Assembly (NCBI RefSeq): GCF_017549005.1
Contig: NZ_JAFYYT010000037.1
Location: 62,001-126,000, forward strand
Reading direction: 5' to 3'
DNA length: 64,000 bases
DNA from: Ruminococcus sp.
GTDB lineage: Bacteria > Bacillota > Clostridia > Oscillospirales > Ruminococcaceae
Part shown: one piece after another, positions 32,622 to 53,940 of the stretch
How positions within the stretch are numbered: position 1 is the first letter of the stretch
Layout: every line of letters begins with the position of its first letter
Made by a program: the position numbers and the translations under genes
The notes under the pieces: generated by a model
Databases searched by the model: none
What the model saw: the letters and a program-made list of their open reading frames with translations, nothing else
Told to the model about the DNA's origin: nothing

Positions 32622-32664
32622 ACAAAAACAACAAAGAAGGCTGCACTGAGAGAGTGCAGCCTTC
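32622..32664 (-). terminator. Terminator of the xylan-uptake operon
   Basis: GAAGGCTGCACT (32636-32647) pairs with AGTGCAGCCTTC (32653-32664); on the minus strand the hairpin is followed by TTTGTTGTTTTT. It lies 40 bases past the last permease gene. Confidence 0.85.
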
Positions 32665-32704
32665 AATGATTTAAGAAAGAAAATGTGATAACTTCTGAAT
32701 TAAA

Positions 32705-33556
32705 TTAACCCTTTACACCGCCAAGTGCAACGCCTTCGATGATGTACTTTGAAAGGAAGAAGTATGCGATGAGGATAGGCAGAACTGTCAGGAAAAGTCC
32801 CAGATAAACAGTACCGTACTGTGTCTTGTAGGAGTCACCGTTAAGTAATGCTACCATCTGCGGCATAGTGAACTTCTCAGTCTTGGTATTGAGGATAGAA
32901 GGCATGAACAGTGAGTTCCAGCTGGTTACGAAGGCAAAGATAGCCTGTGTAGCCATAGCGGGCTTCATCATAGGTATAACTATCTGATTGAAGATCCTGA
33001 ACTCGCCTGCACCGTCGATTCTTGCCGACTGGAGTATCTCCATAGGCAGCGACGGTATCATGTATTGCCTCATAAAGAAGACGACCGTTGGCGCAGCGAT
33101 TGCGGGGAGAATAAGTGGTAACAGGGAGTTGGTCCAGTGCCACTTATACATCATGTTATAGAAACCGATACTCGATACCTGTGCAGGGATCATGAGTACA
33201 GCCATGATAAATGTGAAGAATCCCTTTTTGAGCTTCCAGTCATAAGCAACGATAGCAAAAGCTGTCATTGTCGAGAAATAAACCGTACAAAGAGTTGTAC
33301 ATACAGCTACTATGATAGAGTTCTTGAATCCGGTGAAAGGATTGAAGGACTGGCTTGCAAAGTAGCCCCAGTTAAATCTGAGATTATGACCGGGGATAAG
33401 TGAAAGAGCGTGCTGCTGGATCTGTTCCGAGCTTCTTGTTGCGTTTACAAGCATGATAACGAATGGGAAGATACTAAGAAAAGTGAGAAGAATACATACA
33501 GCATAAGCAACTATTTTAAATGCAAAATTACCTGCACTCTTTTTTACAACTGCCAT
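32705..33556 (-). CDS. Carbohydrate ABC transporter permease (MalG type)
   Basis: A 283-residue inner-membrane permease with six helices, starting VAYAVCILLTFLSIFPFVIML. The cytoplasmic EAA loop, which docks the ATPase, reads EILQSARIDGAGEFRIFNQIVIPMMKP (conserved Ala-x-x-Asp-Gly-Ala). It partners the MalF-type permease encoded immediately upstream; the two genes overlap by 13 bases. With the solute-binding lipoprotein it forms a CUT1-type oligosaccharide importer. No ATPase gene is present, so it must use a shared MsmX/MalK-type ATPase encoded elsewhere. Being next to xylA and GH3, the likely cargo is xylo-oligosaccharides. Confidence 0.92.
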   Translation of the reverse strand: MAVVKKSAGNFAFKIVAYAVCILLTFLSIFPFVIMLVNATRSSEQIQQHALSLIPGHNLRFNWGYFASQSFNPFTGFKNSIIVAVCTTLCTVYFSTMTAFAIVAYDWKLKKGFFTFIMAVLMIPAQVSSIGFYNMMYKWHWTNSLLPLILPAIAAPTVVFFMRQYMIPSLPMEILQSARIDGAGEFRIFNQIVIPMMKPAMATQAIFAFVTSWNSLFMPSILNTKTEKFTMPQMVALLNGDSYKTQYGTVYLGLFLTVLPILIAYFFLSKYIIEGVALGGVKG

Positions 33557-34536
33557 TGATCTATTCCTCCCTTGGAAGCTCTCATAGCTTCCTTCTTTGC
33601 TTTCTTAACTTCCTTATCAAGCTTGATCTGTTCCTTATCACGCATTATGAAGAACAATACAGCTGAACACAATGCTATGATCACCCACATGATCATACTT
33701 GCAGCGGCTGCTCTGTTATATATCCATTTGCCCGAGAAGGCTTGCTTGAAGATGAACACACTGGTCGTGAGTGTTGCATTATCAGGCTTACCATCGTTGA
33801 AGCACTTAGGAATATCATACATATTAAGACCGCCGACAAGGCTGGTAACGAGTGTATACAGTAAAACTGTCTTAAGATTTGGTATAGTAATACGGAAGAA
33901 GGTCTGAACACCATTTGCACCGTCGATCTGTGCCGCTTCATAGATATCAGGGCTTATACCAAGAACGCCCGATATAAGAACTATCATTGTATTTCCGTAC
34001 CATGTCCAGAACTGGATAAATGCAACTATAAGCTTAGATGCCATTTTATGCTGCAGGAAGTAGTATCCTGAGTCCCTTAATCCTGTACTGATAAGGAAAT
34101 CGTTGACAGGTCCTCTTGGGTAAGCAAAGAGCGCCTGGAATAAGATCGCAACTGTTGCAGCTGTGATAATGTTCGGCATATAGAAAACGACTTTAAAGAA
34201 ACCCTTACATTTGATCTCATTACTGTGTGAGGTGAACCACGCAGTAAGAAGAAGTGCGAGAGTGATCTGCGGGATAAAGTTCATTATCCAGATAACTATC
34301 GTGTTTGTTATGGAAGTTTTAAAGGATTCCATACTTAATACCTTCTTGAAGACATCGAACGGGTGCTCCAGGAAATGATAATTTTCCGGGCCGTTGATAC
34401 CTTTACAGTCGGTAAAGCCGAGGATAGCTGTATAAATAGTAGGATACAGCGTAAAAATCAAAAAAGCAACAACAAAAGGAATACTGAATAGATATCCGTA
34501 TTTCGAATAACTAATACCCTTGAGCTTCGTTTTCAA
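33544..34536 (-). CDS. Sugar ABC transporter permease (MalF type)
   Basis: A 330-residue permease with an N-terminal helix (YLFSIPFVVAFLIFTLYPTIY), five further helices and the EAA loop YEAAQIDGANGVQTFFRITIPNL. The C-terminus is a charged tail (KEQIKLDKEVKKAKKEAMRASKGG), longer than usual. It lies 72 bases downstream of the binding-protein gene, and that gap holds a strong hairpin, and it overlaps the MalG-type gene. It should form the heterodimeric channel of the importer. Confidence 0.92.
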   Translation of the reverse strand: MKTKLKGISYSKYGYLFSIPFVVAFLIFTLYPTIYTAILGFTDCKGINGPENYHFLEHPFDVFKKVLSMESFKTSITNTIVIWIMNFIPQITLALLLTAWFTSHSNEIKCKGFFKVVFYMPNIITAATVAILFQALFAYPRGPVNDFLISTGLRDSGYYFLQHKMASKLIVAFIQFWTWYGNTMIVLISGVLGISPDIYEAAQIDGANGVQTFFRITIPNLKTVLLYTLVTSLVGGLNMYDIPKCFNDGKPDNATLTTSVFIFKQAFSGKWIYNRAAAASMIMWVIIALCSAVLFFIMRDKEQIKLDKEVKKAKKEAMRASKGGIDQWQL

Positions 34537-34566
34537 AGCCGTGAGCCTCCTTTATTTTTTAAAGAG

Positions 34567-34595: not shown

Positions 34596-34608
34596 AACTA
34601 AACAATTA

Positions 34609-36096
34609 TTATTCTGCCTCAAAGTCGAGAGTTTCCTCTACATCGGTCTTGAAGTCCTTGATAGCGTCTTCTCTTGACTTGTTGCCTTCAACATACTGAC
34701 CAACCTGATCACGCCATGACTTGTTGATGTGCTCATCGTATGGAGTGAGGTTCTTACCGCTTGCATAAGCGTTACCCTTAACGAATACTTCGTTCATATT
34801 CTGTCCGCCGAGGAAGTCGAGTGTTCCGTCAGACATATTAAGAACTGTCTCAGAAGCAACGCAGTCCTTTGTCGGGTTGTCAGGATCATATGTACCGTTA
34901 GCCCACATGTACTGGAGACCGTCCTTAGTGCAGTCGAGAGTTATCCAGTCAATGATCTTACCAACAGCTTCCTTCTTTGTGCTGTCCTTGTTGCACATGA
35001 GCCATGTACCGCCCCAGAAGAAGCCTACAGGAGGTGTACAAACAGCCCAGTCGCCCCATGTACCAACTGAAGTATCGAGCTTCTGCTTAGGATTGCCGTC
35101 TTCGTCCTTCTCATCTGTGTCAACCCATGAACCGCAGTTCTTAGCGATTGTATAGTTGATGAGCCAAGCAGGTCCGAAGAATCCGAGAACCTTCTTAGGT
35201 CCTTCGTCTCTCATATCAGCGAACCATGTATCCTGCCAGTCAGTTGACTCGTTGTAGTAGTCATTGTCCTTGAGCTTCTTAGCGAGGTCGATGAATGCCT
35301 CACGCTTAGGATCGATGTGGAGCTTATCGTCAACGATCCAGCCCTTGTCAGAGCTGTTCTCAACAGCGTGCCAGAGGTCGCCGTCGCCGGAGATGATAGC
35401 ATAGCCCTTGCCCTTAAGTGTCTCAGCAGCCTCGAAGAACTTATCCCAGTTGCCTGTACCTGCACCGATTGCTGCCTCTACTGCGCTTGGCTCCTCTGAA
35501 CCGAAAGCGTCCTTAGCGATGGAACGTCTGTAGATGAAAGCACCGCCTGTAGCCTGGTAACCGAGAGCAACCTTTTCGCCGCTTGGGTTTGTACCGATCT
35601 CTACAGCGTAGTCAGCGATCTTAGCCTCAGCGATCTTATTGTCAACATCAAGACCGAGATCCTTGTAAGGTGTAGCATAGCTTGACATATCGCCCTGTGT
35701 ATACTTAAGTACGAATGCAGCCTCTGCACAGTAAAGGTCAGGAGCGTCCTTGCCGCCAGCCTGAAGAGCCTTATCAAGAGCAGGTGTGTACTCGTTGTTT
35801 GTTGTAGGAATATTTGTTACATTGATGTCATACTGTGCAGCGAAGTCAGGGTTGAGCTTGAGGAACTTCTCAACCATGCCTGGTACTTCAGCAGTGAAAG
35901 ACCAAACATTGATTGTTTCCTTCTTGCCGTCGCCCTTCTTTTCGCCGTCGTCCTTGGTAGTTGTTTCAGCGTCATCCTTGGCAGCTGTAGTTGTCTTGCT
36001 GCTGGAATCATCCTTCTGATCGTTTGTCTTATCGCCGCAAGCGGTGAAAGATGTGAGGATTGCAAGTGCTGAAATGACCGATAATACTTTTTTCAT
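34609..36096 (-). CDS. Extracellular solute-binding lipoprotein of the oligosaccharide importer
   Basis: A 495-residue binding protein. The start MKKVLSVISALAILTSFTACGDK has a lipoprotein signal with Cys at the lipobox (LTSFTAC, Cys20), followed by a Thr/Asp/Lys-rich linker and a family 1 solute-binding domain beginning ETINVWSFTAEVPGMVEKF. I chose the ATG at 36096, eight bases after GGAGG; an ATG five codons earlier overlaps that site. The protein is larger than typical (about 420-450), which fits binding of longer oligosaccharides. Trp- and Tyr-rich segments (FFGPAWLINYTIAK, GFFWGGTWLMCNK) may stack on sugar rings. The cargo is inferred from its neighbours. Confidence 0.9.
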   Translation of the reverse strand: MKKVLSVISALAILTSFTACGDKTNDQKDDSSSKTTTAAKDDAETTTKDDGEKKGDGKKETINVWSFTAEVPGMVEKFLKLNPDFAAQYDINVTNIPTTNNEYTPALDKALQAGGKDAPDLYCAEAAFVLKYTQGDMSSYATPYKDLGLDVDNKIAEAKIADYAVEIGTNPSGEKVALGYQATGGAFIYRRSIAKDAFGSEEPSAVEAAIGAGTGNWDKFFEAAETLKGKGYAIISGDGDLWHAVENSSDKGWIVDDKLHIDPKREAFIDLAKKLKDNDYYNESTDWQDTWFADMRDEGPKKVLGFFGPAWLINYTIAKNCGSWVDTDEKDEDGNPKQKLDTSVGTWGDWAVCTPPVGFFWGGTWLMCNKDSTKKEAVGKIIDWITLDCTKDGLQYMWANGTYDPDNPTKDCVASETVLNMSDGTLDFLGGQNMNEVFVKGNAYASGKNLTPYDEHINKSWRDQVGQYVEGNKSREDAIKDFKTDVEETLDFEAE

Positions 36097-36140
36097 ATTC
36101 TTGACCTCCATTTGAAAAATAGAATTGATTTATTTCCAAT

Positions 36141-36161
36141 CAGCCTTTGAATTAAAGGCTG
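36141..36161. promoter_or_regulatory. Hairpin at the xylA stop codon
   Basis: CAGCCTTT (36141-36148), GAATT, AAAGGCTG (36154-36161). The xylA stop codon (36152-36154 on minus) falls in the loop and stem edge. With the hairpin at 34567 it brackets the binding-protein gene, consistent with mRNA processing around it. Confidence 0.5.
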
Positions 36162-37465
36162 AAAAGAACGTTATTTACGATGGACTCGAGCATTTCCTGT
36201 CTGCCGCTTGAGAGTGAAGCTGTAACCTCGCCCTTTTCAAGCGCATACTTTTCGAGTGCTGCGAAATCTGCCTTGCCGGCAATGATATCTGCACCGATAC
36301 CTGTGTTCCATGAAGCATATCTGTCAGCAACGAACTTGTCGATACGACCGTCGTCGATGAGCTTGAGAGCTGCTCTGAAGCCGAGTGCGAATGCATCCAT
36401 ACCTGCGATGTAGCTGTAGAAGATGTCCTCAGGTGTGAAGCTGCCTCTTCTTGCCTTAGCGTCGAAGTTGAGACCGCCGTTTGTGAAGCCGCCTGCCTTG
36501 ATAACTTCGTACATACACATTGTTGTGTCATAGATGTTTGTCGGGAACTGATCTGTATCCCATCCGAGGAGCATATCGCCCTGGTTAGCGTCGATAGAAC
36601 CGAATACGCCGTTGTCTCTTGCAACACGGAGCTCGTGCTGGAATGTGTGCTGAGCAAGTGTAGCGTGGTTAGCCTCGATGTTCATCTTGAAGTCCTTGTC
36701 GAGACCGTACTTTCTCAGGAATCCGAGAACAGTAGCAGTATCGAAGTCGTACTGGTGCTTTGTAGGCTCCTTTGGCTTGGGCTCGATGTAGAAGTCGCCC
36801 TTGAAGCCGATCGAACGTCCGTACTCAACAGCCATCTTCATAAGACGAGCCATATTGTCGAGCTCAAGACCCATGTTTGTATTGAGGAGAGTCTCATAAC
36901 CCTCACGGCCGCCCCAGAATACGTATCCGTTACCGCCGAGCTTTACTGTAGACTCGAGAGCCTTCTTGATCTGTGCAGCAGAGAATGCGAATACATCAGC
37001 AGAAGGAGATGTACCTGCACCGTGCATGAATCTCGGATGATCGAAGCACTTGGCTGTACCCCAGAGACACTTCTTGTCGCCCATAGCAGACTTCATGTAG
37101 TCTGTAACGATATCGAGCTGAGCGTTTGTGTCCTTTAAGCTGCCGTACTCAGGAGAAAGGTCACGGTCGTGGAAGCAGTAGTAGTCAATGGAAAGCTTAT
37201 CCATAATCTCCTTTGCTGCGTCTACCTTAGCCTTAGCTCTTGCGGCGGGATCAGCCTGACCCCATGTCTTGTCAGTTGTGCCGCAGCCGAACATATCTGT
37301 TCCGTCGCCGCCCATTGTGTGCCACCAGGAAAGTGCGAACTTAAGGTGATCGCGCATCTTCTTTCCGTTGATCATTTCATCAGGGTTGTAGTACTTGAAT
37401 GAAAGGGGATCTGTACTATCCTTGCCCTTGTACTCGATTTTTCCGATGTTGCTGAAAAATTCCAT
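36152..37465 (-). CDS. xylA: Xylose isomerase
   Basis: A 437-residue class II xylose isomerase that converts D-xylose to D-xylulose with two divalent metals. Signatures are intact: [12 protein letters not shown] (about 96-107, catalytic His), [15 protein letters not shown] (about 181-195), [18 protein letters not shown] (about 223-240, metal-binding Glu and Lys), [17 protein letters not shown], and [19 protein letters not shown] (about 289-307). The start at 37465 has GGAGG seven bases upstream. It lies between the GH3 beta-xylosidase and the importer genes, so the operon covers uptake, hydrolysis and isomerisation. Xylulokinase is absent from the window. Confidence 0.96.
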
Positions 37466-37483
37466 TTTATCCTCCATTAAATG

Positions 37484-39562
37484 TTATAAATTTATTTTCA
37501 GAGTGGTGCATTTCTTACCTGTCAGCTTTTCACTGAGCTCGTCAGGCTGTGAAGTTCCTGCGTAGAGGGTGAACTCACTGCCTTCCTTTACCCACTCGCC
37601 CTTTTCATTGACTGCCATTGTAGACCTTTCGGGAAGAGTGATCTGTACGACCTGACTCTCGCCCGCGTCAAGTGCGACTCTCTTGAAGCCGCAGAGGCTG
37701 TGGTTGGGAACTGCGTTCTCCGAATAACCTTTGATATAGAACTGAACTACGTCTTCCGTAGCGCGGCTGCCCGTATTTGTAACCTTTACGGAAACAACGC
37801 CGTTTTCAAATCTGAGATCGGAACATTCCGTCTCGGAGTAGGTCAGTCCGAAGCCGAAGGGATAAAGAATATTGCCCTTCGCGTATCTGTATGTACGGCC
37901 CTTCATGCTGTAGTCCGAGAAATCGGGCAGCTTTGAAGCGTCCTCATAGAATGTAACAGGGAGCTTACCGGAAGGAGATACCTTGCCGAAAAGGATATTG
38001 GCAAGAGCTCTTCCGCCCAGCTGTCCCGGATACCAGGCGTGTATAAGTGCGTCGCAGTCTGCCTCGACATTTATCGCGCTGCCTGCGGCAGTAACGATGA
38101 TAACGGGCTTGCCCTTGGACATTACAGTCTTTACAAGCTTTCTCTGCGACTCAGGGAGTCTAAGGTCGTTCTTGTCACCTGAGGAGAACTCGTTGCCTGT
38201 ATCGCCCTCTTCGCCCTCGATAGTAGCGTCAAGTCCGACACAAAGCACAACAAGATCGGAATGCTCTGCAATGATCTCTGCCTCGGCGAGTCTGTCGTCG
38301 GGGAGACCGAGCTGCATACATCTGTCCTTGTAGAGGTGACAACCCTCTGAGAAGATGACCCTGCCGTCGAATGCCTCACGGATTCCTCTGAGGAATGTGA
38401 CATATTCGTCAGCCTTGCCGTTGTAGTTGCCCTCAAGTGCGGGAACGCTGTCGGCATTGGGTCCGATGACTCCGATAGTTTTATATTTTCCCTCTGCAAG
38501 AGGTAAAATACCGTTATTTCTGAGGAGCACCATTGAACGCTCGGAACATTTGAGTGAGAACGCCTTGTGCTCGTCGCAGGCTACGATATCGTAATCAAGT
38601 CCGTCAAATTCTGTGGACTTGTCGAACATACCGAGCCTTACTCTTGTTCTCATCAGCTTCACGCAGGATCTTCTGAGATCCTCCTTGGTGATGAGTCCTT
38701 CATTATATGCAATAAGAAGGTGGAGATATGTATTTCCGCAGTTGAGGTCGCAGCCTGCCTTGAGAGCCATAGCTGCCGACTCGGGAGCGGTCTTTGTTAC
38801 GCCGTGATTTGTGTGGAAATCTCTGAGAGCCCAGCAGTCGGAAACGAAATGTCCGTCGAAGCCCCATTCCTTGAGCTTTCCCATAAGGAAACTGCTTGCA
38901 CAGGCAGGCTCACCGTTTACGCGGTTGTAAGCGCCCATTACGCTCTCGACCTTTGCTTCCTTGACAAGAGCCTCGAAAGCTGCGGTATAGGTCTCTGTCA
39001 TGTCCTTCATATTTGACTTTGCGTCAAATTCATGTCTTGTGGCTTCAGGGCCGCTGTGAACTGCGAAATGCTTTGCACAGGCAGCTGTTCTGAGGACCTT
39101 GCCGTCTCCCTGAAGTCCCTTTGCATACGCAACGCCGAGTCTGGAAGTAAGGAACGGATCCTCACCGTAGGTCTCCTGACCTCTTCCCCATCTCGGGTCT
39201 CTGAATATATTAACATTCGGTGACCAGAGTGTAAGTCCCTTATAGATATCGCGGTCACCGTGCGCCGAATATTCATTATACTTGGCACGTGCCTCCACAG
39301 AAGTTATCTCTCCTGCCTTGTGCACAGCCTCCTCGTCAAACATTGCTGCAAGACCTATGGTCTGAGGGAACATTGTAGCTGTTCCGGCTCTTGCAACGCC
39401 GTGAAGTCCTTCACTCCACCAGTTGTAAGCAGGTATCCCCAGCCTATCGACCTTGGGAGCATCATACTTGAGCTGTTCAGCCTGTTCTTCGACTGAAAGC
39501 CTGTCCGTGATGTCCTCGGCTCTTTCAAGTGCGGATAATGCTTCATTCATATACTTTTCCAC
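37484..39562 (-). CDS. GH3 beta-xylosidase/glycosidase
   Basis: A 692-residue glycoside hydrolase family 3 enzyme without signal peptide, so cytoplasmic. The GIPAYNWWSEGLHGVARAG block (about 43-61) is typical of beta-xylosidases and arabinofuranosidases of GH3, followed by PNVNIFRDPRWGRGQETYGEDP, KHFAVHSGPEATRHEFD and the nucleophile Asp in FVSDCWAL (about residue 242). The C-terminal part carries the (alpha/beta)6 domain (LVVLCVGLDATIEGEEGD, acid/base region) and a fibronectin III-like domain. I choose the GTG at 39562, seven bases after GGAG; an ATG six bases earlier touches the site. It should split imported xylo-oligosaccharides. Confidence 0.93.
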   Translation of the reverse strand: MEKYMNEALSALERAEDITDRLSVEEQAEQLKYDAPKVDRLGIPAYNWWSEGLHGVARAGTATMFPQTIGLAAMFDEEAVHKAGEITSVEARAKYNEYSAHGDRDIYKGLTLWSPNVNIFRDPRWGRGQETYGEDPFLTSRLGVAYAKGLQGDGKVLRTAACAKHFAVHSGPEATRHEFDAKSNMKDMTETYTAAFEALVKEAKVESVMGAYNRVNGEPACASSFLMGKLKEWGFDGHFVSDCWALRDFHTNHGVTKTAPESAAMALKAGCDLNCGNTYLHLLIAYNEGLITKEDLRRSCVKLMRTRVRLGMFDKSTEFDGLDYDIVACDEHKAFSLKCSERSMVLLRNNGILPLAEGKYKTIGVIGPNADSVPALEGNYNGKADEYVTFLRGIREAFDGRVIFSEGCHLYKDRCMQLGLPDDRLAEAEIIAEHSDLVVLCVGLDATIEGEEGDTGNEFSSGDKNDLRLPESQRKLVKTVMSKGKPVIIVTAAGSAINVEADCDALIHAWYPGQLGGRALANILFGKVSPSGKLPVTFYEDASKLPDFSDYSMKGRTYRYAKGNILYPFGFGLTYSETECSDLRFENGVVSVKVTNTGSRATEDVVQFYIKGYSENAVPNHSLCGFKRVALDAGESQVVQITLPERSTMAVNEKGEWVKEGSEFTLYAGTSQPDELSEKLTGKKCTTLKINL

Positions 39563-39578
39563 AAGCATTCTCCTTTCA

Positions 39579-40469
39579 TTATAATTTGCTTACAAATTCG
39601 TCTATGAATTTTTCAGGAGAACCTTCTGTACCTGATATCTCCCATACTTCCCTTATCGAAGCGGTCTCTCCCGGCTGATAGCTTCTCAGCTCGCCGAGTA
39701 TCTCGCATTCAAGGAAAAGATCGTTTGTATATGTCTCAAAATTGCAGCAGAAATCAGGGTAAACTATTTCCTTATAGTCATCAAAGGTAACTTTCAGTAC
39801 CTGTTGATCCTTTATGTAAACTATCTGTTTTCCTGTTACATTGAACCCTGCCTTGAACGGCTGTTTTTTCTTCGGATCCTGCCTGAGTACAGCGTACCCG
39901 TTATTGAGCCCGAAACGCTCGTCCTTTATATCGGAATAGCTCCAGAGCGCCATAGTCCTGTTGGGGAGGAAACCGTTATCGTCCTTGCAGAGAGGGATTA
40001 CCTCGGTTCCGCCAGCCACAAGTCCCGTAACGGACCAGGGAGCGAATTCGGCAGGTTTGTCAGAGCAATTGGTGATCTTATTTTCTATGATCACTGAGTT
40101 ATCTTCACCCATGGTCACAACGATCTCGAACTGCTTGTCAAATTTTGTCATCGCAGGTCTGAGAGTAAGGACTCCGTCCGCAAAAAGCGCCTCGATCCTG
40201 TCGTTATCGGGCAGGTAAGTCTCAGGCATAACTTCGGGCGCGAGCCACATTCTATGACCACCATAAGCGTACCAGACGCCATAGCCGTTATTCATCTCAT
40301 AGAAGTTTCTGTCGATGTCCTCGAAAAGCATATTTGCACCGTCAGAGGGTCCGAAGAAAACAATTCTCGGTCCAACATCTATAGTTGCAATGAGCTTAAT
40401 CTTCCCATTATCGAGACAGGCGCACTTTCCATAGTTTTTAAAGTCGATTTCTTTGTAGTTAGTAGACAT
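39579..40469 (-). CDS. DUF4380-type beta-sandwich protein (aldose-mutarotase-like)
   Basis: A 296-residue soluble protein. IATIDVGPRIVFFGPSDGANM (about 28-48), GGHRMWLAPE (about 69-78) and FAPWSVTGLVAGGTEVIPL (about 141-159) match DUF4380, whose fold pattern resembles galactose mutarotase-like domains; a conserved His-Arg-x-Trp-x-Ala-Pro-Glu is the probable active site. It is the first gene of the xylan operon, 16 bases before GH3. A mutarotase acting on xylose or another sugar would fit: GH3 releases beta-xylose while XylA uses the alpha anomer. That role is inference; no biochemical evidence is known to me. Confidence 0.82.
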   Translation of the reverse strand: MSTNYKEIDFKNYGKCACLDNGKIKLIATIDVGPRIVFFGPSDGANMLFEDIDRNFYEMNNGYGVWYAYGGHRMWLAPEVMPETYLPDNDRIEALFADGVLTLRPAMTKFDKQFEIVVTMGEDNSVIIENKITNCSDKPAEFAPWSVTGLVAGGTEVIPLCKDDNGFLPNRTMALWSYSDIKDERFGLNNGYAVLRQDPKKKQPFKAGFNVTGKQIVYIKDQQVLKVTFDDYKEIVYPDFCCNFETYTNDLFLECEILGELRSYQPGETASIREVWEISGTEGSPEKFIDEFVSKL

Positions 40470-40506: not shown

Positions 40507-40602
40507 ATACACTTAAACAATTAATACTAATCAAATATTGCGACTTTTTTTATAGTTTTTGCTCATGAATTGCTAACATTTTCAGTTTTTTATCCAACCC
40601 AC

Positions 40603-40737: not shown

Positions 40738-41604
40738 ATGATCAAAAACCTGTCAGGCGATTATGAGACCGTCGAGTATGAAAACCAACGCTTCGTCATG
40801 CTTTATGACAATGACGAAGTGGAGGAATATCCTACTCACTGGCATAACGCCGTGGAAGTCATTATCCCTCTTCACAATGGCTTCACAGTGACTATTGGCG
40901 GAACGAATTATCATCTGAACGAAAAAGAGATAATAATCATACCGCCGGGCGAGCTCCATTCAATGCCCGCCCAGGAAGGCAGACGTATAATATTCCAGTG
41001 TGAAAACAACATTATAAGCGATGTTCCGGCACTTGAAGCGCTTATACCAGTTTTCTCCTGCCCGTTCCACATTACTCCGGCACTGAGTAAGGAGCTTTAC
41101 GTTCTCGCCCGCAAGAATATACTCGATATCTATTCCGAGTACTACTCAAAATCCTCGCTTGCCGACGTAAGGATATATCTCTCCCTCGTGAATATCCTTG
41201 CAGCCGTCAGAGAGTATCAACTCACTATGGCAGCTGACGCTTTCTCCACCGAAGCAACGGGACGCGACGACACAAGAAAGTTCGGAATGGTCATGAAGTA
41301 CATCAATCAGAATTATATGGAAGAGATACCTCTCGAGAAGATCGCCTATATCGCAGGCTACAGCAAGTACCACTTCTCCCGTCTTTTCAAGAAATACAAC
41401 AACGTTTCCTATATACAATATATAAACAGCAAGCGTATCAAGGCAGCCGAAAGACTGCTTATCGACCCGAATCTCTCCGTTACCGAGGTCGCAATGCGTG
41501 CAGGCTTTGCAAGCCTCACCACATTCAACCGTGCATTCAAAAAGGCTAAGAACTGCACTCCAACGGAGTTCAAGACGCTTTACAAAATATCGGATCATAC
41601 ATAA
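40738..41604 (+). CDS. AraC-family regulator of the xylan operon
   Basis: A 288-residue regulator with an N-terminal cupin-type sensor (YPTHWHNAVEVIIPL, then NEKEIIIIPPGELHSMPA) and a C-terminal pair of helix-turn-helix motifs (IPLEKIAYIAGYSKYHFSRLFKK and LSVTEVAMRAGFASLTTFNRAFKKA, about 200-275). The cupin probably binds a sugar. Divergent orientation from the DUF4380-GH3-xylA-importer operon, with a shared 268-base control region, makes it the likely activator. AAGGAGG lies before the ATG. A strong terminator follows. Confidence 0.93.
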   Translation: MIKNLSGDYETVEYENQRFVMLYDNDEVEEYPTHWHNAVEVIIPLHNGFTVTIGGTNYHLNEKEIIIIPPGELHSMPAQEGRRIIFQCENNIISDVPALEALIPVFSCPFHITPALSKELYVLARKNILDIYSEYYSKSSLADVRIYLSLVNILAAVREYQLTMAADAFSTEATGRDDTRKFGMVMKYINQNYMEEIPLEKIAYIAGYSKYHFSRLFKKYNNVSYIQYINSKRIKAAERLLIDPNLSVTEVAMRAGFASLTTFNRAFKKAKNCTPTEFKTLYKISDHT

Positions 41605-44500: not shown

Positions 44501-44519
44501 AAATCTTCCCTCTCATTCC

Positions 44520-44571
44520 GTGACAAAGGTCACTAAAAATAAATTTATACATTTGAAACAGAACGCGCCAA
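44520..44571 (-). promoter_or_regulatory. Possible GH16 promoter and leader palindrome
   Basis: Minus strand: TTGGCG (44571-44566), 16 bases, TATAAA (44549-44544), followed by the palindrome GTGAC-CTTT-GTCAC (44533-44520) in the leader. The spacing is acceptable and the hexamers are weak. Confidence 0.4.
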
Positions 44572-45578: not shown

Positions 45579-45580
45579 TT

Positions 45581-46342
45581 TTACTTGTTCTCTTTCATGA
45601 AATCAGGAAATTTGTAGCGTTTTTTGTACTCTTTCGGAGTAACGCCCAGGTATTTCTTGAATATCTTGATAAAATAGCTCTGGGAGCTGAAACCCAGAAG
45701 GTTGCTTATCTCAGAATCGGTATACTCGGAAAAGGTCAGAAGATTTGCAGCTTCCTCTGCTTTCGTCTTGCTTACATAATTACTGAAAGCGATGCCCGTT
45801 TCCGACTTGAAAAGCCTTGAAAGGTACGCAGGACTTATTTTAAGGAAGTCCGCGGCGTCTTCTATCATGATCTTTCCGTGGAGATGATCGCTTATGTAGT
45901 CGAGAGCGCGTACTATCTGCTTGGAGTAGATACCGCTGTTGCGGACTCTTCTCATATGCCTCGTATAGCCCTCTATCATTTCCTGATGTACTGCATGGAC
46001 CTCGTCCTCCGTCCTGCATTCATCAGCCTTCATTATGTAAATATCGCTGAGATTATAGGCTTCTTCAAGTGTCATGCCGCTGTTTATGCAGAATCTTGCA
46101 ATAAGTGCGGCTGAAATTGAAAAATGGTATTTTAAGTTTCTGAGAGGATCCTTACTCAGGATACCGTAGCCCTCGCTGCAAAGCGGAGTCGCAAACACCT
46201 TCACAAGCTCGATATTACCCGAACAGATGCTCTCATAGCACGCTATCTCACGGTCAAAGGGCGCGTGCTCGAAACCCTCCTCGCGTTTAAGGAAAAGATG
46301 GGATGAAATATACTTCTCTGTATAATCGCTCATGTAGGACAC
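45581..46342 (-). CDS. AraC-family transcriptional regulator
   Basis: A 253-residue regulator. The N-terminal 140 residues are helical and do not show a cupin signature, unlike the other two AraC proteins here; they contain CINSGMTLEEAYNLSDIYIMKADEC, a pattern I associate with regulators carrying a helical sensor. The C-terminal DNA-binding domain has KIMIEDAADFLKISPAYLSRLFKSETG and SEISNLLGFSSQSYFIKIFKKYLG (about 155-240). It sits between the first AraC gene and the GH43-CE1 gene, all minus. AGGTGTCCTAC precedes the ATG. Target not evident. Confidence 0.88.
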   Translation of the reverse strand: MSYMSDYTEKYISSHLFLKREEGFEHAPFDREIACYESICSGNIELVKVFATPLCSEGYGILSKDPLRNLKYHFSISAALIARFCINSGMTLEEAYNLSDIYIMKADECRTEDEVHAVHQEMIEGYTRHMRRVRNSGIYSKQIVRALDYISDHLHGKIMIEDAADFLKISPAYLSRLFKSETGIAFSNYVSKTKAEEAANLLTFSEYTDSEISNLLGFSSQSYFIKIFKKYLGVTPKEYKKRYKFPDFMKENK

Positions 46343-46478: not shown

Positions 46479-49457
46479 TTAAGTACCTGTTTCATGGAAG
46501 AAGTAAGGAAGTGCGTCATAAACGTAATGCCTTACATAGCCCCACCAGTGAGTCTTGCCTGGAGCGACCAGCCAGTAGAGGTTGCCGTTTGAGAAATCCG
46601 AAGTATATGTAAAGTACTTCGTGCGTGTCTTGAGGTCCTCCATTTCGGGCTTCATGTTGGGATATGCGATATCATCGGAACCTGTAGCCGCAAAGATGAA
46701 GTACTGATTCTTCTTGAGACCGAGTCTGTCGATAGTTCCTGTCAGAGCGTCCATGCCCTCCCAGTTATTGCCCGAAAGCGGCATCAGGTAGCCGACGATG
46801 TCCATATCGTGGTCTGCAACGCACCATGTCGAGAGACCTCCCATTGAGAAGCCGCCGTATGCACGGTGCATTCTTGTAGCCTGGAGATTCGACTCGGAAA
46901 CGTCGCCCTTGGCGTATGTTGAATACTTCTTCTCAACGAAAGGAACCACGCTCTTCTTGAACTCGTCCCAGAACTTGTCTGCTCCGCTCTTGTTGAATGT
47001 AGGAGTTACCACGATCATAGGCTCAAGCTCGCCGTTCATTATCATATGGTCGAGGATCTTGTTGAGCTTTACGTCGTCGCTGAAGATCGTATTCTCGTTC
47101 TCTCCGCCGCCGTGCATGATGTAGAAAATGTTGTACTGCTTGCTCTCATCATAGCCGTAAGGGAGATAAACATTGAGAGTATTGCTGCCGTTTATGCCGT
47201 TATAGGTCTCCTTGACTATCCTGCCCGACTGCGAACAGGAATTGAGGTAGTCACCCGGCGCTTCCTTGTAGGAAACAGCGGGATTGTAGTCGAAAGGCGT
47301 TACCTGCGGCTCCGGAGAGTTATCCGGGAATTCCTTTATCTTGCCGAGAACGAAATTCTGCATAAGGATAAGGTCATTCACCTCAAACTCAGTGCTCTTG
47401 TCAACGTCTGCGAGTTTCTCCAGAGAAGCATCCCTGCTGCTTGAAAGAATGAGCTTTCTTGCAGCGCTTATGTCCATCGCGTTCAGACGTCCGTCGGAGT
47501 TTACATCGCCGAGTATGAACTGTCCGCCGACTGCGCCCTCGATAGCCGTGCCGGCCGCTGCGACAGCCACATCGTCAACATAGAAGCTCGTCGAACCGCT
47601 TTCTGTCTCGACATAGACCATTATATCGGAAGCGTCGGCAGGTACGGTAAAGCTGGTATTTGCCAGCTGGACCCACTTGCCCTTCATAGGAACAGCCTTA
47701 GCGATCTTCTCGTATTTTGTATCTGTTCCGTCGCTGTACTGCATAGTCAGGTAGAATACTTCAGAGTCTCTGCCCTCATTCTGCATTACATTAGCGCTGA
47801 AGCTGTAGGACTTGCCTGCGCTTATGCTGCTTCCCGGTTTGAAAGCCGCGCCGTTCCACGAATCCGATCTGCCTGAGCAGTAGAGCGAACCGCTGCCCTC
47901 GAAGGCCGCCTTGGATGATGCTGCTACAGAAGCTCCGCCTCTGCCTTCCCAATTTTCATCGCTGCTTTCGAATGTATAACGCAGCAGATAATCCCCTGAA
48001 ACGACAGTCTTTCCAATAGTAGTAGTCGTTGTATTATTCCTGGGTGCAGTGGTCGAAGTTGTTGTAACAGAAGGCTGAACGCCCTCATCTCCGCCGAATT
48101 TCCACCAGTCGATGTTGAAGAGGTAGTCATTGCCGCCTGTATATTTGAAGTAAAGGTCGTGCTCGCCGCTTGCGCCGCTGACGCTGCAGGATACTTCTTC
48201 CCAGCTCTGCCAGCCGCCCGTCACGGGAACTTCGCAGGTACCTACCTTCTTGCCGTTGAGGCCGTCAAGATAGATCTCTATGCTGCCGCCGCTTCCTGCC
48301 GAAGCAACGCTTGCTGTGAATTTATCGGCACCGCTGCCGAAATCGACGCCGCTCACCTTGACGTAGCTGCCGTTTCGGATATTTGAAAGATCCATGCCGA
48401 CATTGTCGCAGGCTTCCGTCTTTACGCCTGACGAGAAGCACATAGTCTCGGCTTCAACGCGCTTGAACGGGTCAAGAGCTTCCAGCTGCTCAGGCCCCTG
48501 CTTTGTAGGCGAGATAGTCGGTATAGAACCGTCCGAGCCGTACTGAAATTCGTCAACGCATACGCTTCTGTCGAAGCTGCCGCCTCCCGGGAGACTTGCG
48601 TCGTGATAGAACAGGTACGAATGGCCCTTGAAGTCGATAACTCCGGGGTGATTTGTGAAGCAGTTGTGCTTCTTCATTACCTGTCCGCCGTATTTCCACG
48701 GACCTGTAGGTGAAGGCGCTGTAGAGTAGCCTATGCTCTCAGAGTCCTCTCCGTTGTAGAATGCAGCGAAAACAAGATAATAGAGATCGCCGCGCTTGTA
48801 GAACCACGGTCCCTCGCCGTAGGAGGACGCTTTTCCGCCTCCGGGACCGAATGTGGAGGAGTTCATGTCAAAGTGACCGATAGGACCGTCAAGAGTTACC
48901 ATGTCCTCCTTGAGCTTGACATAGTAACAGGTCGGATTTCCGAACATGAGCCAGGCCTGTCCGTCATCGTCGATGAACACCGTCGGGTCAATGTAATCCC
49001 AGTTGGGACCGCAAAGAGGCTTGCCTAAAGCGTCCTTGAAAGGTCCCGTCGGCGAATCGGCAACTGCAACGCCTATGCCTCTGCCGCCGCCTGATTTGTT
49101 CTCGAGAGTCACATAGTAATAGAACTTACCGTTACGCTCTATACACTGTGACGCCCAGGCGGAATCTTCCTTGCCCCATGAAAACGAGTTCCACGAAAGC
49201 AGCATACCGTGATCTGTCCAGTTCTGCATATCCTGCGAGGAATAGCAGTGCCAGTCAGGCATATAGTAGAAGTCCGAGTTGTCTTTGTCACGTCCGGTGT
49301 ATACATATACCGTATCATTATACACCATCGGTGCAGGGTCAGTGCTGTAAATCGTCTGGATACAGGGATTATCAGCCATGACCTGAGCTGTCGGGACTGT
49401 CGCCAGCGCAGTCAGTGACATTGCAGCGGCAGTCGCAAAAGATAATAATCTTTTCAT
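46479..49457 (-). CDS. Secreted GH43-CBM6-CBM22-dockerin-CE1 arabinoxylan enzyme
   Basis: A 992-residue multi-domain enzyme. Signal peptide (1-29); GH43 five-bladed propeller (about 33-325) with general base D40 in STDPAP, D157 in YIDPTVF and acid E215 in YGEGPW; CBM6 (about 330-455, ending FNIDWWKFG); Thr linker (about 463-482); CBM4/22-like module (about 488-635); dockerin (647-710, loops GDVNSDGRLNAMD and ADVDKSTEFEVND); and a CE1 esterase (about 735-985) with nucleophile S871 in GGFSMGG and a His near GKTHWWGY. GH43-CBM6 proteins are usually arabinofuranosidases or xylosidases; CE1 fits feruloyl or acetylxylan esterase. GGGGG lies before the ATG. Confidence 0.93.
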   Translation of the reverse strand: MKRLLSFATAAAMSLTALATVPTAQVMADNPCIQTIYSTDPAPMVYNDTVYVYTGRDKDNSDFYYMPDWHCYSSQDMQNWTDHGMLLSWNSFSWGKEDSAWASQCIERNGKFYYYVTLENKSGGGRGIGVAVADSPTGPFKDALGKPLCGPNWDYIDPTVFIDDDGQAWLMFGNPTCYYVKLKEDMVTLDGPIGHFDMNSSTFGPGGGKASSYGEGPWFYKRGDLYYLVFAAFYNGEDSESIGYSTAPSPTGPWKYGGQVMKKHNCFTNHPGVIDFKGHSYLFYHDASLPGGGSFDRSVCVDEFQYGSDGSIPTISPTKQGPEQLEALDPFKRVEAETMCFSSGVKTEACDNVGMDLSNIRNGSYVKVSGVDFGSGADKFTASVASAGSGGSIEIYLDGLNGKKVGTCEVPVTGGWQSWEEVSCSVSGASGEHDLYFKYTGGNDYLFNIDWWKFGGDEGVQPSVTTTSTTAPRNNTTTTTIGKTVVSGDYLLRYTFESSDENWEGRGGASVAASSKAAFEGSGSLYCSGRSDSWNGAAFKPGSSISAGKSYSFSANVMQNEGRDSEVFYLTMQYSDGTDTKYEKIAKAVPMKGKWVQLANTSFTVPADASDIMVYVETESGSTSFYVDDVAVAAAGTAIEGAVGGQFILGDVNSDGRLNAMDISAARKLILSSSRDASLEKLADVDKSTEFEVNDLILMQNFVLGKIKEFPDNSPEPQVTPFDYNPAVSYKEAPGDYLNSCSQSGRIVKETYNGINGSNTLNVYLPYGYDESKQYNIFYIMHGGGENENTIFSDDVKLNKILDHMIMNGELEPMIVVTPTFNKSGADKFWDEFKKSVVPFVEKKYSTYAKGDVSESNLQATRMHRAYGGFSMGGLSTWCVADHDMDIVGYLMPLSGNNWEGMDALTGTIDRLGLKKNQYFIFAATGSDDIAYPNMKPEMEDLKTRTKYFTYTSDFSNGNLYWLVAPGKTHWWGYVRHYVYDALPYFFHETGT

Positions 49458-49943
49458 AAGTCTGCCCCCATTATTAAGTTTTTTGGATTTTGCCTATTAT
49501 TTCCCTTCTGATTGAGCGTGAACCTTTAACGGTCAAAGTTCACAATTTCTTTATATTTTATCTACAGTATAATGTAAATTTAGACTTTTCTTATACCAAA
49601 ATTATGATATTTATGGTAATATTACTACCATTTATGTTCGTTTTTTGCTAAACTTATCATTTATTGCTATCCATACTAAAATATCTCTACATTTTGCTGT
49701 TTTGTTCATTATTTTCTTTATTTTTCGGCAATTTCACGTAAAAAATCTTCCATTTACATGAGTCCATTGCGGCCATGAACAATATTATTTTTGTGCTGCT
49801 GTCAGCAATTTTTAGCTATGATCCACAATTACCACAAAAAACGACTTGCATTTAAATACTTGTTCATTTTACAATGAAGTCACAGATATCTTCGGGCACT
49901 TTTACAATTGTTTTTTATGATTTGAAAAAAGGAGTGATCCACC
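49458..49943. promoter_or_regulatory. Divergent control region between GH43-CE1 and GH11 genes
   Basis: A 486-base, very AT-rich stretch without a gene. It holds an imperfect leader hairpin for the GH43 gene (GTGAACCTTT/AAAGTTCAC, 49518-49543), a TTGCTAA motif (49645-49651), a second similar AGCAATTTTTAGCTA tract near 49803, and a plausible GH11 promoter TTGCAT (49846-49851), 18 bases, TACAAT (49870-49875). No strong sigma-A promoter for the GH43 gene is evident, as expected for an activated promoter. Confidence 0.5.
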
Positions 49944-52058
49944 ATGAGATCAAAGATTTTCAGCAAAGTCACAGGCGCAGCTGTTTCCGCAGCGCTGCTC
50001 CTTTCGTCCGTTCCCTTCGCCGCTTCGGCAGCAGACGATCAGAAGCTCGGCAAGATCGGCGGTTTTGACTATGAGATGTGGAACATGAACTGTGCAGGTG
50101 AAATAGAATACGAACCGGGCGAGAGCACTTTTACCTGTAAATGGTCAAACATAGATAACTGCCTTGCAATGATGGGCAGAAAGTATGACACGTCCAAAAA
50201 GAATTACTATGACTTTGGCAGGATATCACTTACATATGATATCGACATTACACCGCAAGGCAATGCGACATACGGCGCATACGGCTGGACGCGTAACCCG
50301 CTTTCCGAGTACTATATTGTCGAAGGCTGGGGCAACTGGAGACCATGCCCGGATTCAAAAGATCATTACGCCGGTTCTTCAACCGTTAACGGTCACGAAT
50401 ACGACGTATTCCGTTATTACCGCTATAATCAGCCATCTATCATGGGAACAATGAGCTTTCCCACTTACTACTGCGTAAGAAAGGAAAGCGCCATAGAGGA
50501 TAATGTGCTCAACCAGGTAACGGATTCTATTGACATTACCAAGCATTTCAAGTCTATGGAGGCTCTCGGCTTCGATCTTTCTGGAGAGCTGTATGAAACA
50601 ATGTTTTATGTTGAAGGCTACAGATCAAGCGGAAGTGCTCAGCTGAAAAAACTTCATTTCGGCAGCGGCATGGACACCACTCCCCTGAAGATAGATCCAC
50701 GCAAGTACTGTGAAGAAGTTAACGCCATAGCTGACGCTTACGGCTACATATACAAATACGATTTTGATTACAGTATATATGACTGGCAGCCTCGTGTTGA
50801 CGAGAAACTGAAACTAAGTCAGATAAGCTACAAGGGCGGCGGCTCGATGAGTGTTTCCGGGCGCACTTCATCATGGCAGGGACCTGTTTTCCCGATTTCC
50901 AGATCAAACTTATTTGCAGGAGATTGCTACAGCATAGGCGCTGTTGTTATGCAGTGTGAAACCGAAAAAGCTGATTTTTCCATTGTATGCCAGTATCTTG
51001 ACGAAAACGGTCAGTATCAGTTTGAAAATGTCGCAGAGGTCAAAGCTTACACAGGAGTATGGACAGATCTTTCCAACACCTGCTACAAAATACCGGAAAA
51101 TGCCAGAAACTTCTCATTCTTTATCGAAACTCCAGATTATGTCGGAGATTTCTATGTTGACAGTGCATACACAGCCTTAGACGGCGTCGAAGCTTATGCA
51201 CGTTTTGCTCCAGACCCTGTTCCGACTTTACGCGGTGATATCAACTGCGACGGTCTCATAGACGTATTTGACCTTGCTTCGTTCAGAAAGGGACTGCTCG
51301 GCATGATATCAGGCAAAGGAAAAGCTCCTGCAAACTCCGACATAAACGAAGACGGCATGATAAACGTTGCAGACCTTGTATGCCTGCAAAGATATCTTCT
51401 CGGCGCCGAAAAGTTCCCTGATACTGCAGCAGAAACGACTACCACAACCACTTCCACAACAACAACACCACCAACAACAACTACTACTACCACGTCTGCT
51501 TCATCAACGACTTTCAAAACGACCGAAAAGAAAACTTCAACTACTACATCACAGAGCACAACGACTACACCTGCTGCAACAACGACCACAACTACAACAG
51601 CGGAAAAGGACTCCTATGAGTTCAATGCTCAGTATATAAACACAAACGGAGAATATGACAGTACCTACCCTATGACAACAATCATAACAAACCGCGACGA
51701 GCTTGACAGCTATATGACCGATTATATGGAATCTTTGCGAATCAATCCTCTTTTCTCATATTCATTCGATGCGGAAACATTTTTAAAGAACTCCGATAAT
51801 TATACTGATGAATGGTTCAGCAGCAACAAGCTTGTCGTTGTACTCTTGCGTGAAGCATTCTTAGCTCGCGACATCCATAAGGTAGCTTACATCAATAAGG
51901 ACGAAGTCGGAATTGAACGCCTTAAAAACGGCGGCGATATGGTTTGCTCTTACTGGCACATTTTTATTGAAGTTGATAAGGACGCCGAAATAAATGATGA
52001 TCTTAAAGTAAGTGTTACAGATTCACCCGATATGGATCTTCGCTATCCATTTGGTTAA
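49944..52058 (+). CDS. Secreted GH11 xylanase with CBM22, internal dockerin and unknown C-terminal domain
   Basis: A 704-residue exported xylanase. Signal peptide (1-30); GH11 jelly roll (about 40-240) with nucleophile E122 in NPLSEYYIV, the WRP thumb base, QPSIMGT and acid/base E224 in YVEGYRSSG; a CBM22/CBM4-like module (about 268-415, YKGGGSMSVSGR to FYVDSAY); dockerin (about 429-491, both loops intact, GDINCDGLID and SDINEDGMIN); a Thr/Ser linker (497-553); and a C-terminal domain (about 557-704) I do not recognise, which resembles PrcB-type domains in its strand pattern and has SYWHIFIEVDKD. The dockerin is therefore internal. AAAAAGGAGTG precedes the ATG. Confidence 0.93.
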   Translation: MRSKIFSKVTGAAVSAALLLSSVPFAASAADDQKLGKIGGFDYEMWNMNCAGEIEYEPGESTFTCKWSNIDNCLAMMGRKYDTSKKNYYDFGRISLTYDIDITPQGNATYGAYGWTRNPLSEYYIVEGWGNWRPCPDSKDHYAGSSTVNGHEYDVFRYYRYNQPSIMGTMSFPTYYCVRKESAIEDNVLNQVTDSIDITKHFKSMEALGFDLSGELYETMFYVEGYRSSGSAQLKKLHFGSGMDTTPLKIDPRKYCEEVNAIADAYGYIYKYDFDYSIYDWQPRVDEKLKLSQISYKGGGSMSVSGRTSSWQGPVFPISRSNLFAGDCYSIGAVVMQCETEKADFSIVCQYLDENGQYQFENVAEVKAYTGVWTDLSNTCYKIPENARNFSFFIETPDYVGDFYVDSAYTALDGVEAYARFAPDPVPTLRGDINCDGLIDVFDLASFRKGLLGMISGKGKAPANSDINEDGMINVADLVCLQRYLLGAEKFPDTAAETTTTTTSTTTTPPTTTTTTTSASSTTFKTTEKKTSTTTSQSTTTTPAATTTTTTTAEKDSYEFNAQYINTNGEYDSTYPMTTIITNRDELDSYMTDYMESLRINPLFSYSFDAETFLKNSDNYTDEWFSSNKLVVVLLREAFLARDIHKVAYINKDEVGIERLKNGGDMVCSYWHIFIEVDKDAEINDDLKVSVTDSPDMDLRYPFG

Positions 52059-52076
52059 ACTAATATTACCATAAAA

Positions 52077-52518: not shown

Positions 52519-52548
52519 TATTTCTCCTTTATATCCGTAAAATCAAAG

Positions 52549-52584
52549 AAAAGCCATAGTACCCGGAAATACTATGGCTTTTTT
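52549..52584. terminator. Terminator between M23 and HIT genes
   Basis: AAAAGCCATAGTA (52549-52561), CCCGGAAA, TACTATGGCTTTT (52570-52582) with T tracts on both strands. It ends the M23-dockerin transcript on minus. Confidence 0.88.
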
Positions 52585-52602
52585 ATCCGTAAAGCTGTAA
52601 TG

Positions 52603-53940
52603 TCAGTTTGAAGCGCTGATTATCGCTTTTTTCATCTCAACGAGGTCAAAAACATCGGAATTTCCGTCCTTATTGAGATCGGAAGCCTCAAACTGAGCCT
52701 TTGTGAAGTCCCCTGACTTTTTAAGCAGATGATCCTGCAAAATAACGAGATCGGCCGTATCGAGCTTTTTGTCGCCGTTAAGATCTCCTGCAACGGTCTC
52801 GGTATTTGCCGTATTTCCGCTGCCCTTGCCGATTATGAAATCACTCTTCACAAGCTCGAACTTGCCGCCGTTCTTATCCTCGGCAATGATCTTGTAGGTG
52901 TAATCGCCGTCATTAAGGGCGTTGAACACGATATTCCTGTCAAAATACGAGGAAAGGTCGTATTTTACCGCATTCGGAGCAGCTTCCGCATACTGGCTCG
53001 TAGCTTCTCCGTTCCGGAAATAAACTCCGCCGTAAACTTTCGTAATGCTGAAGTTGGAAGTAATGACTCCCTTTATGGAGAATACCTTTCCTTTGGCGAT
53101 TGTACCTGTAGGAGAGGTAGCTCCCGTTATTTTCATATCGGACTTCATATCCTCTTTCTTCTGCATATAAGCCATTGAAGAAAAGCCGCTCTTGCCGTTG
53201 TACTCAACGTGAGCCCACTCGCCGTTTCCCTTTGTTACGGTAAATTCAGCTCCTGCAGGTATCTCTCCCACAACTGCCGAGCTGGTACTGTGACCTGCCC
53301 TGATATTGAGAACTGTCACAACTCCCTTTGTAGTGTAAAGTCCTGCACAGTCGGCAGTACAGCTGCAATCGTTCTCCACAGCTGTCGGAGGAGCCACAGT
53401 CGTTCCGCCGCCCACATTGTCTGAATATGTGAAATAAGACAGCGGATCGTAGTATGTTTTCGCAGGCCAGCCTGACGATAAACTTGTGCATATTCCGAAG
53501 TGCAGATGATTTCCCGAGGAATTGCCGGTACTTCCGACCTTAGCAATGATATCGCCCTGTTTTACAGCCGCACCGCCGCTTACGAGAAGCTGCGAAGCAT
53601 GGGCGTAGAAGGTATAAACTCCCAGATCAGCATGATAGATTATGACCGTGTAGCCGTAACCGTCCTTCCATTCCGCGGAAGTGACCTGACCGCCGTATGC
53701 TGCAAAAATACTGGTTCCGCCGTTTGCTTCGATGTCGATACCGTTGTGATATCCAGAAGCATCGCTGATATTGCGGTTAGCGTCAAAATAAGTGGTTATG
53801 TTTTTGTACTGCGGCTCAGTAGGCCATACAGCATATACGGCTGCATAAACTTTATTGGCCGAAGGAAGCCTTATCTGTGCTGTGAATATCAATGCTATGG
53901 CAACAAGGACAGCCGAAGCTCTCCTGATAGTATTTTTCAT
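52603..53940 (-). CDS. Secreted M23 peptidase with SH3 and dockerin domains
   Basis: A 445-residue exported protein. Signal peptide (1-34); LytM/M23 metallopeptidase domain (about 42-165) with zinc ligands H65 and D69 in YHNGIDI, H114 in YAHAS and H145/H147 in GNHLHFG; a bacterial SH3-like domain (about 203-260, VTVLNIRAGHSTSS and GKSGFSSMAYM); an Ig-like segment (about 270-370) and a C-terminal dockerin (about 384-442, loops GDLNGDKKLDTADL and SDLNKDGNSDVFDL). M23 enzymes cut peptide crosslinks of peptidoglycan. A dockerin on such an enzyme suggests scaffoldin-bound cell-wall remodelling. GGAG lies eight bases before the ATG. Confidence 0.93.
   Translation of the reverse strand: MKNTIRRASAVLVAIALIFTAQIRLPSANKVYAAVYAVWPTEPQYKNITTYFDANRNISDASGYHNGIDIEANGGTSIFAAYGGQVTSAEWKDGYGYTVIIYHADLGVYTFYAHASQLLVSGGAAVKQGDIIAKVGSTGNSSGNHLHFGICTSLSSGWPAKTYYDPLSYFTYSDNVGGGTTVAPPTAVENDCSCTADCAGLYTTKGVVTVLNIRAGHSTSSAVVGEIPAGAEFTVTKGNGEWAHVEYNGKSGFSSMAYMQKKEDMKSDMKITGATSPTGTIAKGKVFSIKGVITSNFSITKVYGGVYFRNGEATSQYAEAAPNAVKYDLSSYFDRNIVFNALNDGDYTYKIIAEDKNGGKFELVKSDFIIGKGSGNTANTETVAGDLNGDKKLDTADLVILQDHLLKKSGDFTKAQFEASDLNKDGNSDVFDLVEMKKAIISASN

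Follow-up and report, generated by a model that had tools for sequence, protein, structure and literature searches.

Do cellulosomal (dockerin-bearing) hemicellulases that lie next to genes for sugar uptake and xylose isomerisation belong to one regulon with these neighbours? The question is raised by a 21-kb hemicellulose locus at positions 32,622 to 53,940 of a stretch of 64,000 nucleotides from Ruminococcus sp. (assembly GCF_017549005.1, contig NZ_JAFYYT010000037.1, positions 62,001 to 126,000; the whole stretch is hereafter the window, and coordinates refer to it). The locus also holds three AraC-family regulator genes (AraC1, AraC2 and AraC3), and an earlier interpretation made from the letters alone (the sequence-only reading) had suggested a single regulon. 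Our results favour this by sequence for the core operon of uptake and catabolism and for the GH11 xylanase gene, together with many unlinked GH11 genes. They do not support it for AraC2, AraC3 and the gene of a protein with three GH16 modules (GH16x3), at which both motifs described below are absent, while the GH43-CE1 gene has a weak, unconserved half-site. The explanation that we hold to be fairly probable is a xylan locus of two modules, in which the core operon and the GH11 gene share a xylan regulon through AraC1 or a paralog of it. Throughout, G000 is the window's own genome, G018, G031 and G034 are comparison genomes, and L-numbers denote individual loci.

The core operon is read from the minus strand in the order mutarotase-like gene, GH3, xylA, binding protein, permease A and permease B, with AraC1 divergent from it. 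Upstream of this operon, relatives carry a direct repeat, GCAAN4TGATTAGT, whose copies are usually 21 bp apart. Alignment of the AraC1-mutarotase intergenic region (14 rows, 13 distinct loci) shows, in 12 of the 14 rows, a pair of GCAA half-sites with a spacing of exactly 21 bp on the 5′ side of the operon promoter; in the window and in L001 there is an 11-bp insertion and the half-sites are 32 bp apart. The minus strand of the window shows a proximal half-site of the mutarotase operon, GCAATATTTGATTAGTAT (40524..40541), a degenerate middle copy, GCAAAAACTAT (40552-40562), and a distal half-site, GCAATTCATGA (40563-40573). A wider set of 36 rows (31 distinct once duplicate contigs are dropped), spanning AraC1 identities from 97% down to 46%, has at least one GCAA site in 36/36 rows and the 21-bp pair in 25 (20 of the 31 distinct ones), counts obtained with a lax pattern for which occasional chance matches are expected. 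The araI1-araI2 operator of AraC in Escherichia coli likewise consists of direct repeats that adjoin the promoter and are spaced by 21 bp, or two helical turns; the Ruminococcus repeats differ from it in sequence, and spacings of 29-32 bp occur among them too. The conserved repeat adjoins AraC1 and is a putative AraC-type operator. Because AraC1 stays next to it, accompanying the operon even in relatives in which its identity has fallen to 46%, this regulator is likely to be the natural reader of the core operator.

A related motif, GCAAN4TGACTTGT, is found upstream of the GH11 gene of the locus and of many dispersed GH11 genes, and is rare at GH9 genes. Matrix scans place two half-sites 29 bp apart facing the locus GH11 gene (49803..49849, plus strand), the proximal one being CCACAAAAAACGACTTGC (49832-49849, plus strand). 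This link was first noticed by reading the genes 3′ of half-site matches, and the tests came after. With free spacing, a matrix whose training set was the mutarotase operators of 11 relatives scores 10 of 17 own-genome GH11 promoters higher than any of the 14 GH9 promoters (p=0.001). The motif derived de novo from the 17 GH11 promoters is CNGCAANAAWTGACTTGY, and its core is the same as that of the mutarotase operator. At 12 bits or more, the GH11 matrix finds a site in 13/17 GH11 and 1/14 GH9 promoters of the own genome, and in 3/5 weak GH11 rows, which were scored in G000 only. The contrast holds in G034 and G031, both held out from training (13/18 GH11 versus 2/17 GH9, Fisher 4e-4), and none of 500 column-permuted matrices matched this held-out difference. 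None of the 7 other window promoters reaches 12 bits. The locus GH11 site is itself kept in G018 (exactly) and in G034 (17.5 bits, L271), and pairs 21 bp apart exist at GH11 genes too (G000:C37, G018:C11). Rows at contig edges (GH11 L189, GH10 L199), a GH9 gene with no stop upstream (L292) and a GH9 fragment (C41:5) were dropped, and second domains within an open reading frame (ORF) were left uncounted.

For a further count, we made an exact pattern out of the own-genome motif and looked for it in the 500 bp that precede the first GH11 domain; the G018 promoters were assessed by this pattern only, and L189 was counted as a miss. It precedes 10/18 GH11 genes in G000 and, in the genomes outside pattern building, 9/11 in G018, 3/14 in G034 and 1/4 in G031, and is found at 0/48 GH9 domains (about 0.08 expected). 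One GH9 gene of G034 was entered by the far end of its domain; with no exact match of G034 near either end, the zero is unaffected. Matches to the exact pattern and to its reversed form number 30 versus 10 in G000, 24 versus 2 in G034, 19 versus 11 in G018 and 13 versus 10 in G031, the last pair leaving little excess. Gene context was read for the 29 matches of G000 and G018 that are off the counted GH11 genes, and the 33 such matches of G034 and G031 were left out. Those outside long ORFs precede two GH11-like genes (L235, L244), an esterase (L243), a leucine-rich-repeat protein (L249) and a kinase-like ORF (L257); at L255 nothing lies close behind the match. Whole-genome counts alone were set aside as proof: for the half-site, with as many as 2 mismatches allowed, there are 18+24 matches versus 16+15 reversed, and for the paired pattern, with as many as 3 allowed, 25+47 versus 29+14.

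Several observations weigh against the two-module explanation with a regulon common to the core operon and the GH11 genes. When the mutarotase matrix is fixed at a spacing of 21 bp, GH11 and GH9 promoters are not separated (p=0.07); most GH11 pairs have spacings of 29-31 bp, of which 29 is out of phase with 21. The held-out genomes belong to the same genus, and the contrast in them is weaker at higher lines, with 8/18 versus 2/17 at 15 bits (p=0.04) and 7/18 versus 1/17 at 17 bits (p=0.02). The exact pattern is rare at the GH11 genes of G034 and G031, and 23 of the 29 matches read for context fall inside ORFs of at least 160 aa. A GH11 subgroup (L178, L179, L267, L274 and L276) and the two GH10 genes scored (0/2 at 12 bits) have no site in the expected place. 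The GH11 matrix scores the mutarotase operator at 10.6 bits, under the 12-bit line, so that the two motifs may have different readers. The GH43-CE1 promoter scores 11.4 with the mutarotase matrix against at most 4.0 for all 14 GH9 promoters, which speaks for including GH43-CE1 in the regulon as well. Finally, gels of cellulose-grown 007C show an AraC regulator and a substrate-binding protein labelled 'involved in xylan utilization' (PMC3672088, in the excerpts available); if the latter is the binding protein of this locus, induction is not restricted to xylan.

How far do these points support other explanations? The GH11 motif could be a relic of gene duplication and not a working operator, since these genes are paralogous and their promoters can still be aligned in 18 of 595 pairs. 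We regard this as very improbable: 19 of the 23 promoter groups that do not align mutually include a member with the motif, the same core stands at the unrelated mutarotase operon, and xylB has a 15.6-bit site by the GH11 matrix. A weightier proposal, though still one we find rather unlikely, is that another regulator reads the GH11 motif, which would merely resemble the AraC1 operator. The AraC-type response regulator XydR controls xyl-doc in C. cellulolyticum (PMC3572039, in part), the own genome holds 16 AraC-like matches, the motifs differ in TTAGT versus CTTGT and in spacing, and the mutarotase operator reaches only 10.6 bits with the GH11 matrix. Yet the GCAA-N4-TGA core is common to both motifs and was found independently, and the L182 promoter carries one half-site of each type. 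Furthermore, one close AraC1 paralog exists in the own genome (56% identity, C42:47044-47898; L302:9039-9899), a solitary gene 2.8 kb from a GH11-GH10-dockerin gene and preceded by a GCAA...GGTTAGT site of the TTAGT type. We infer a single system behind the two motifs, a relation that rests on the shared core, the mutarotase-matrix test and L182, without a common matrix score. AraC1 and its paralog are the likely readers of the two motifs, and the existence of two readers and two operator variants would account for TTAGT versus CTTGT. Extended to the genus, this becomes a more tentative proposal, possible but short of probable: a dispersed Ruminococcus xylan regulon with two paralogous AraC activators and related but distinct direct-repeat operators, the TTAGT type serving uptake and catabolism, the CTTGT type serving GH11 xylanases and one or more esterases.

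The broadest alternative makes the whole 21 kb one arabinoxylan regulon under the three AraC proteins together. In its favour, gene order is conserved in the flavefaciens group, and the GH43-CE1 half-site outscores all the GH9 controls. This possible half-site (49650..49667, minus strand) has, however, 2 mismatches and is unconserved in the two relatives aligned. Matrix scans found neither GCAA motif at the promoters of GH16x3, AraC2, AraC3 and the M23-dockerin gene. Other conserved elements are present instead: a GTGAC-N4-GTCAC element just 5′ of the GH16x3 start (44518..44533, minus strand) occurs in 6/6 loci, one of them with a changed base, and is kept although the enzyme behind it varies, and the AraC2 and AraC3 promoter regions are conserved in their own way. 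In addition, a terminator-like hairpin separates AraC3 from AraC2, and the GH16 modules match the beta-glucanase family and not an arabinoxylan enzyme. As the promoters of the second module differ and no operator is common to all of them, we did not retain the single regulon as our main explanation, and we consider it improbable. The GTGAC-N4-GTCAC element may act as an operator at the transcription start, or alternatively as a 5′ hairpin. The idea that it serves cellulosome genes in general was rejected, since the genome holds one exact 20-base copy and 4 matches with two mismatches.

For the two-module xylan locus, we infer the protein bound to the operator, its activating role, the inducer, the transcription units and the sharing of an ATPase as follows. 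Module 1 would consist of the mutarotase, GH3, xylA, binding protein and two permease genes, driven by the divergent AraC1, which is predicted to bind the direct repeats immediately 5′ of the promoter. Imported xylo-oligosaccharides would be cut by GH3, and the xylose epimerised, isomerised and then phosphorylated by the product of the unlinked xylB (xylulokinase, C22:28063). The importer may borrow a MalK-type ATPase encoded elsewhere: the cluster has no ATPase gene, as the sequence-only reading had stated, and the own genome has one MalK-type OB match (PF17912, C40:14189), although a further ATPase is possible since the assembly is 93.8% complete. Module 2 would comprise separately transcribed dockerin enzymes and the two further AraC genes. 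Its GH11 gene and the many scattered GH11 genes would form one xylan regulon, with AraC1 or the 56% paralog as reader, and GH16x3 would be under other control.

Profile searches confirmed all the gene content claimed earlier and added two genes, for the mutarotase-like protein and for a protein with M23 peptidase, SH3 and dockerin modules; the claimed coverage of depolymerisation, debranching, uptake and entry into the pentose phosphate pathway is borne out by this content. AraC1 (40738..41604, plus strand) has a weak cupin match. On the minus strand, the first operon gene, mutarotase-like, lies at 39579..40469 (NF052227, 221 bits, below the cut-off of 550). It is followed by a GH3 gene of beta-xylosidase type (37484..39568), xylA (36152..37477; TIGR02630, 711.7 bits, cut-off 533.25), the solute-binding lipoprotein gene (34609..36111), and the CUT1-type permeases A (33544..34536) and B (32705..33556); the genes from GH3 onwards are contiguous and codirectional. 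GH3 is probably a cytoplasmic beta-xylosidase, because no signal peptide is seen in its sequence and its best matches are xylan 1,4-beta-xylosidases (NF041776, 722 bits, under the cut-off of 1250; PDB 7vc7). The binding protein was assigned from its position, a lipoprotein-like signal and a single PDB match, to a cellobiose-binding protein (9.5e-11); it has no match in Pfam or NCBIfam. A terminator-like hairpin 3′ of permease B (32664-32636) lies between this gene and FTHFS (30865-32646), whose 5′ end falls inside the range studied (from 32622), and FTHFS is therefore probably a separate unit; 28 terminator-like hairpins were found versus 16.1 expected. Rfam at gathering scores and a tRNA search gave no match within the window.

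The dockerin block starts with the minus-strand gene for Doc-GH16-GH16-GH16, of beta-glucanase (BglS) type (41735..44500), in which DEIDIE, which we take to be the catalytic motif, is kept in all three GH16 modules. Repeats 1 and 2 of this gene share 93% identity, against 88-89% with their G034 counterparts, which hints at homogenisation of the repeats inside the gene. AraC2 (44598..45395) and AraC3 (45581..46342) follow on the same strand, and then GH43-CBM6-CBM22-Doc-CE1 (46479..49457, minus strand; modules called CBM22 here bear the Pfam name CBM_4_9). The GH43 domain of this protein is near xylosidase/arabinofuranosidase structures (8hcj and Xsa43E, 4nov), its CBM22 module has a further match in the solved module of xylanase Y, and its CE1 domain is close to the xylanase Y esterase module (PDB 1gkk, 1.3e-116), which is a feruloyl esterase. 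The promoter region facing GH43 (49458-49943) contains an element, approximately ATTACCATN4ATCAN2ATTTTGNTATA, that is conserved in the three loci aligned and is unlike the GCAA site. The GH11-CBM22-Doc xylanase is encoded on the plus strand (49944..52058); its C-terminus (51500-52058) has about 140 residues without a Pfam match after a threonine-rich linker. At the edge of the cluster, the M23 peptidase-SH3-dockerin protein (52603..53940, minus strand) has a 65% counterpart beyond GH11 in G018 (L116) and is possibly a wall-acting enzyme on the cellulosome.

Which of these features are shared by other Ruminococcus? The window genome (3.33 Mb, 56 contigs) belongs to the Ruminococcus flavefaciens group by its xylA, since the closest sequences are from Ruminococcus metagenome-assembled genomes and R. 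flavefaciens ATCC 19208, 007c and XPD3002. The core module (AraC1, mutarotase, GH3, xylA and importer) recurs across Ruminococcus, more distant members included; in a survey of 80 named xylA loci, the binding protein is near xylA in at least 25, a lower bound as many contigs are short. Among the loci compared, the dockerin-enzyme block is found in the flavefaciens group only. The block GH43-AraC3-AraC2-GH16 slot-AraC1-operon is present in L002, L004, L005, L006 and G034, and the core alone in L007 (XPD3002) and G031 (L113-L114), so that the long block is kept within the group and the core beyond it. GH11 adjoins GH43 in G034 and G018. The slot before AraC1 holds full-length Doc-GH16x3 counterparts in L004 and G034, which does not support a triplication unique to the own strain; in 007c and L002 it holds a GH11-like part and then one GH16. 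G018 (L115-L116) has one GH16 beside a GH9 domain in a frame of 1100 residues, probably a single protein, from which the slot appears to accept quite different enzymes. At least 141 dockerin matches exist in the own genome by profile search, a lower bound obtained from 150 of 245 scored candidates. Their clustering was tested on 129 positions, with tandem matches merged and single-match contigs left out: only this locus has 4 positions within 8.5 kb, and with 3 windows holding 4 within 12 kb and 12 windows holding 3 within 8.5 kb, some clustering is usual in this genome.

This is the known xylan-utilisation locus of R. flavefaciens, and its layout is ordinary for that species. The original paper on this operon is reportedly that of Aurilia et al. 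in 2000 (Anaerobe 6:333). According to the portions available of a later article, strains FD-1 and 17 have a xylan operon with GH3, xylose isomerase and three ABC genes (ugpA, B and E), flanked by cellulosomal (dockerin) genes and with xylulokinase elsewhere (PMC2721979). The window has the same genes and dockerin flanks, with xylB elsewhere; it differs from strain 17, which has XynD upstream of GH3, in that the slot upstream holds Doc-GH16x3 (PMC2721979, same portions). The text of PMC2721979 nowhere uses the words AraC or mutarotase, and no operator is described in its sections on the xylan operon. The xyl-doc cluster of Clostridium (Ruminiclostridium) cellulolyticum comprises 14 hemicellulase genes under the two-component system XydS/R (PMC3572039, in part). 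It resembles our locus in its clustered hemicellulase genes, AraC-type regulator, one co-controlled gene outside the cluster and ABC transporter genes up- and downstream, and differs in its two-component control and in that the available part of PMC3572039 notes no xylose isomerase. The xyloglucan cluster of R. cellulolyticum shares an extracellular cellulosome, ABC import, cytoplasmic cleavage and an adjacent AraC-like regulator, but concerns xyloglucan, has a two-component system and is made up of cytoplasmic enzymes and a transporter (PMC4780118, in part). With layout and function already in print, the sequence-only reading's view that this arrangement is unusual for cellulosome producers does not hold. 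In contrast, a search of literature listings, with subscription journals mostly outside its reach, showed no published operator of this kind; the operator, and the dispersed xylan regulon that it would define, may be new.

To our knowledge, little has been established in Ruminococcus about how rumen cellulosome producers match their enzyme set to the substrate. With a testable operator and two candidate regulators, one could ask directly which of the dispersed xylanase genes are xylan-responsive. A shared switch would link the secretion of xylanases to the uptake of their products and, if the two-reader regulon is true, the cell could tune the uptake of xylan products and the release of cellulosomal xylanases together yet separately.

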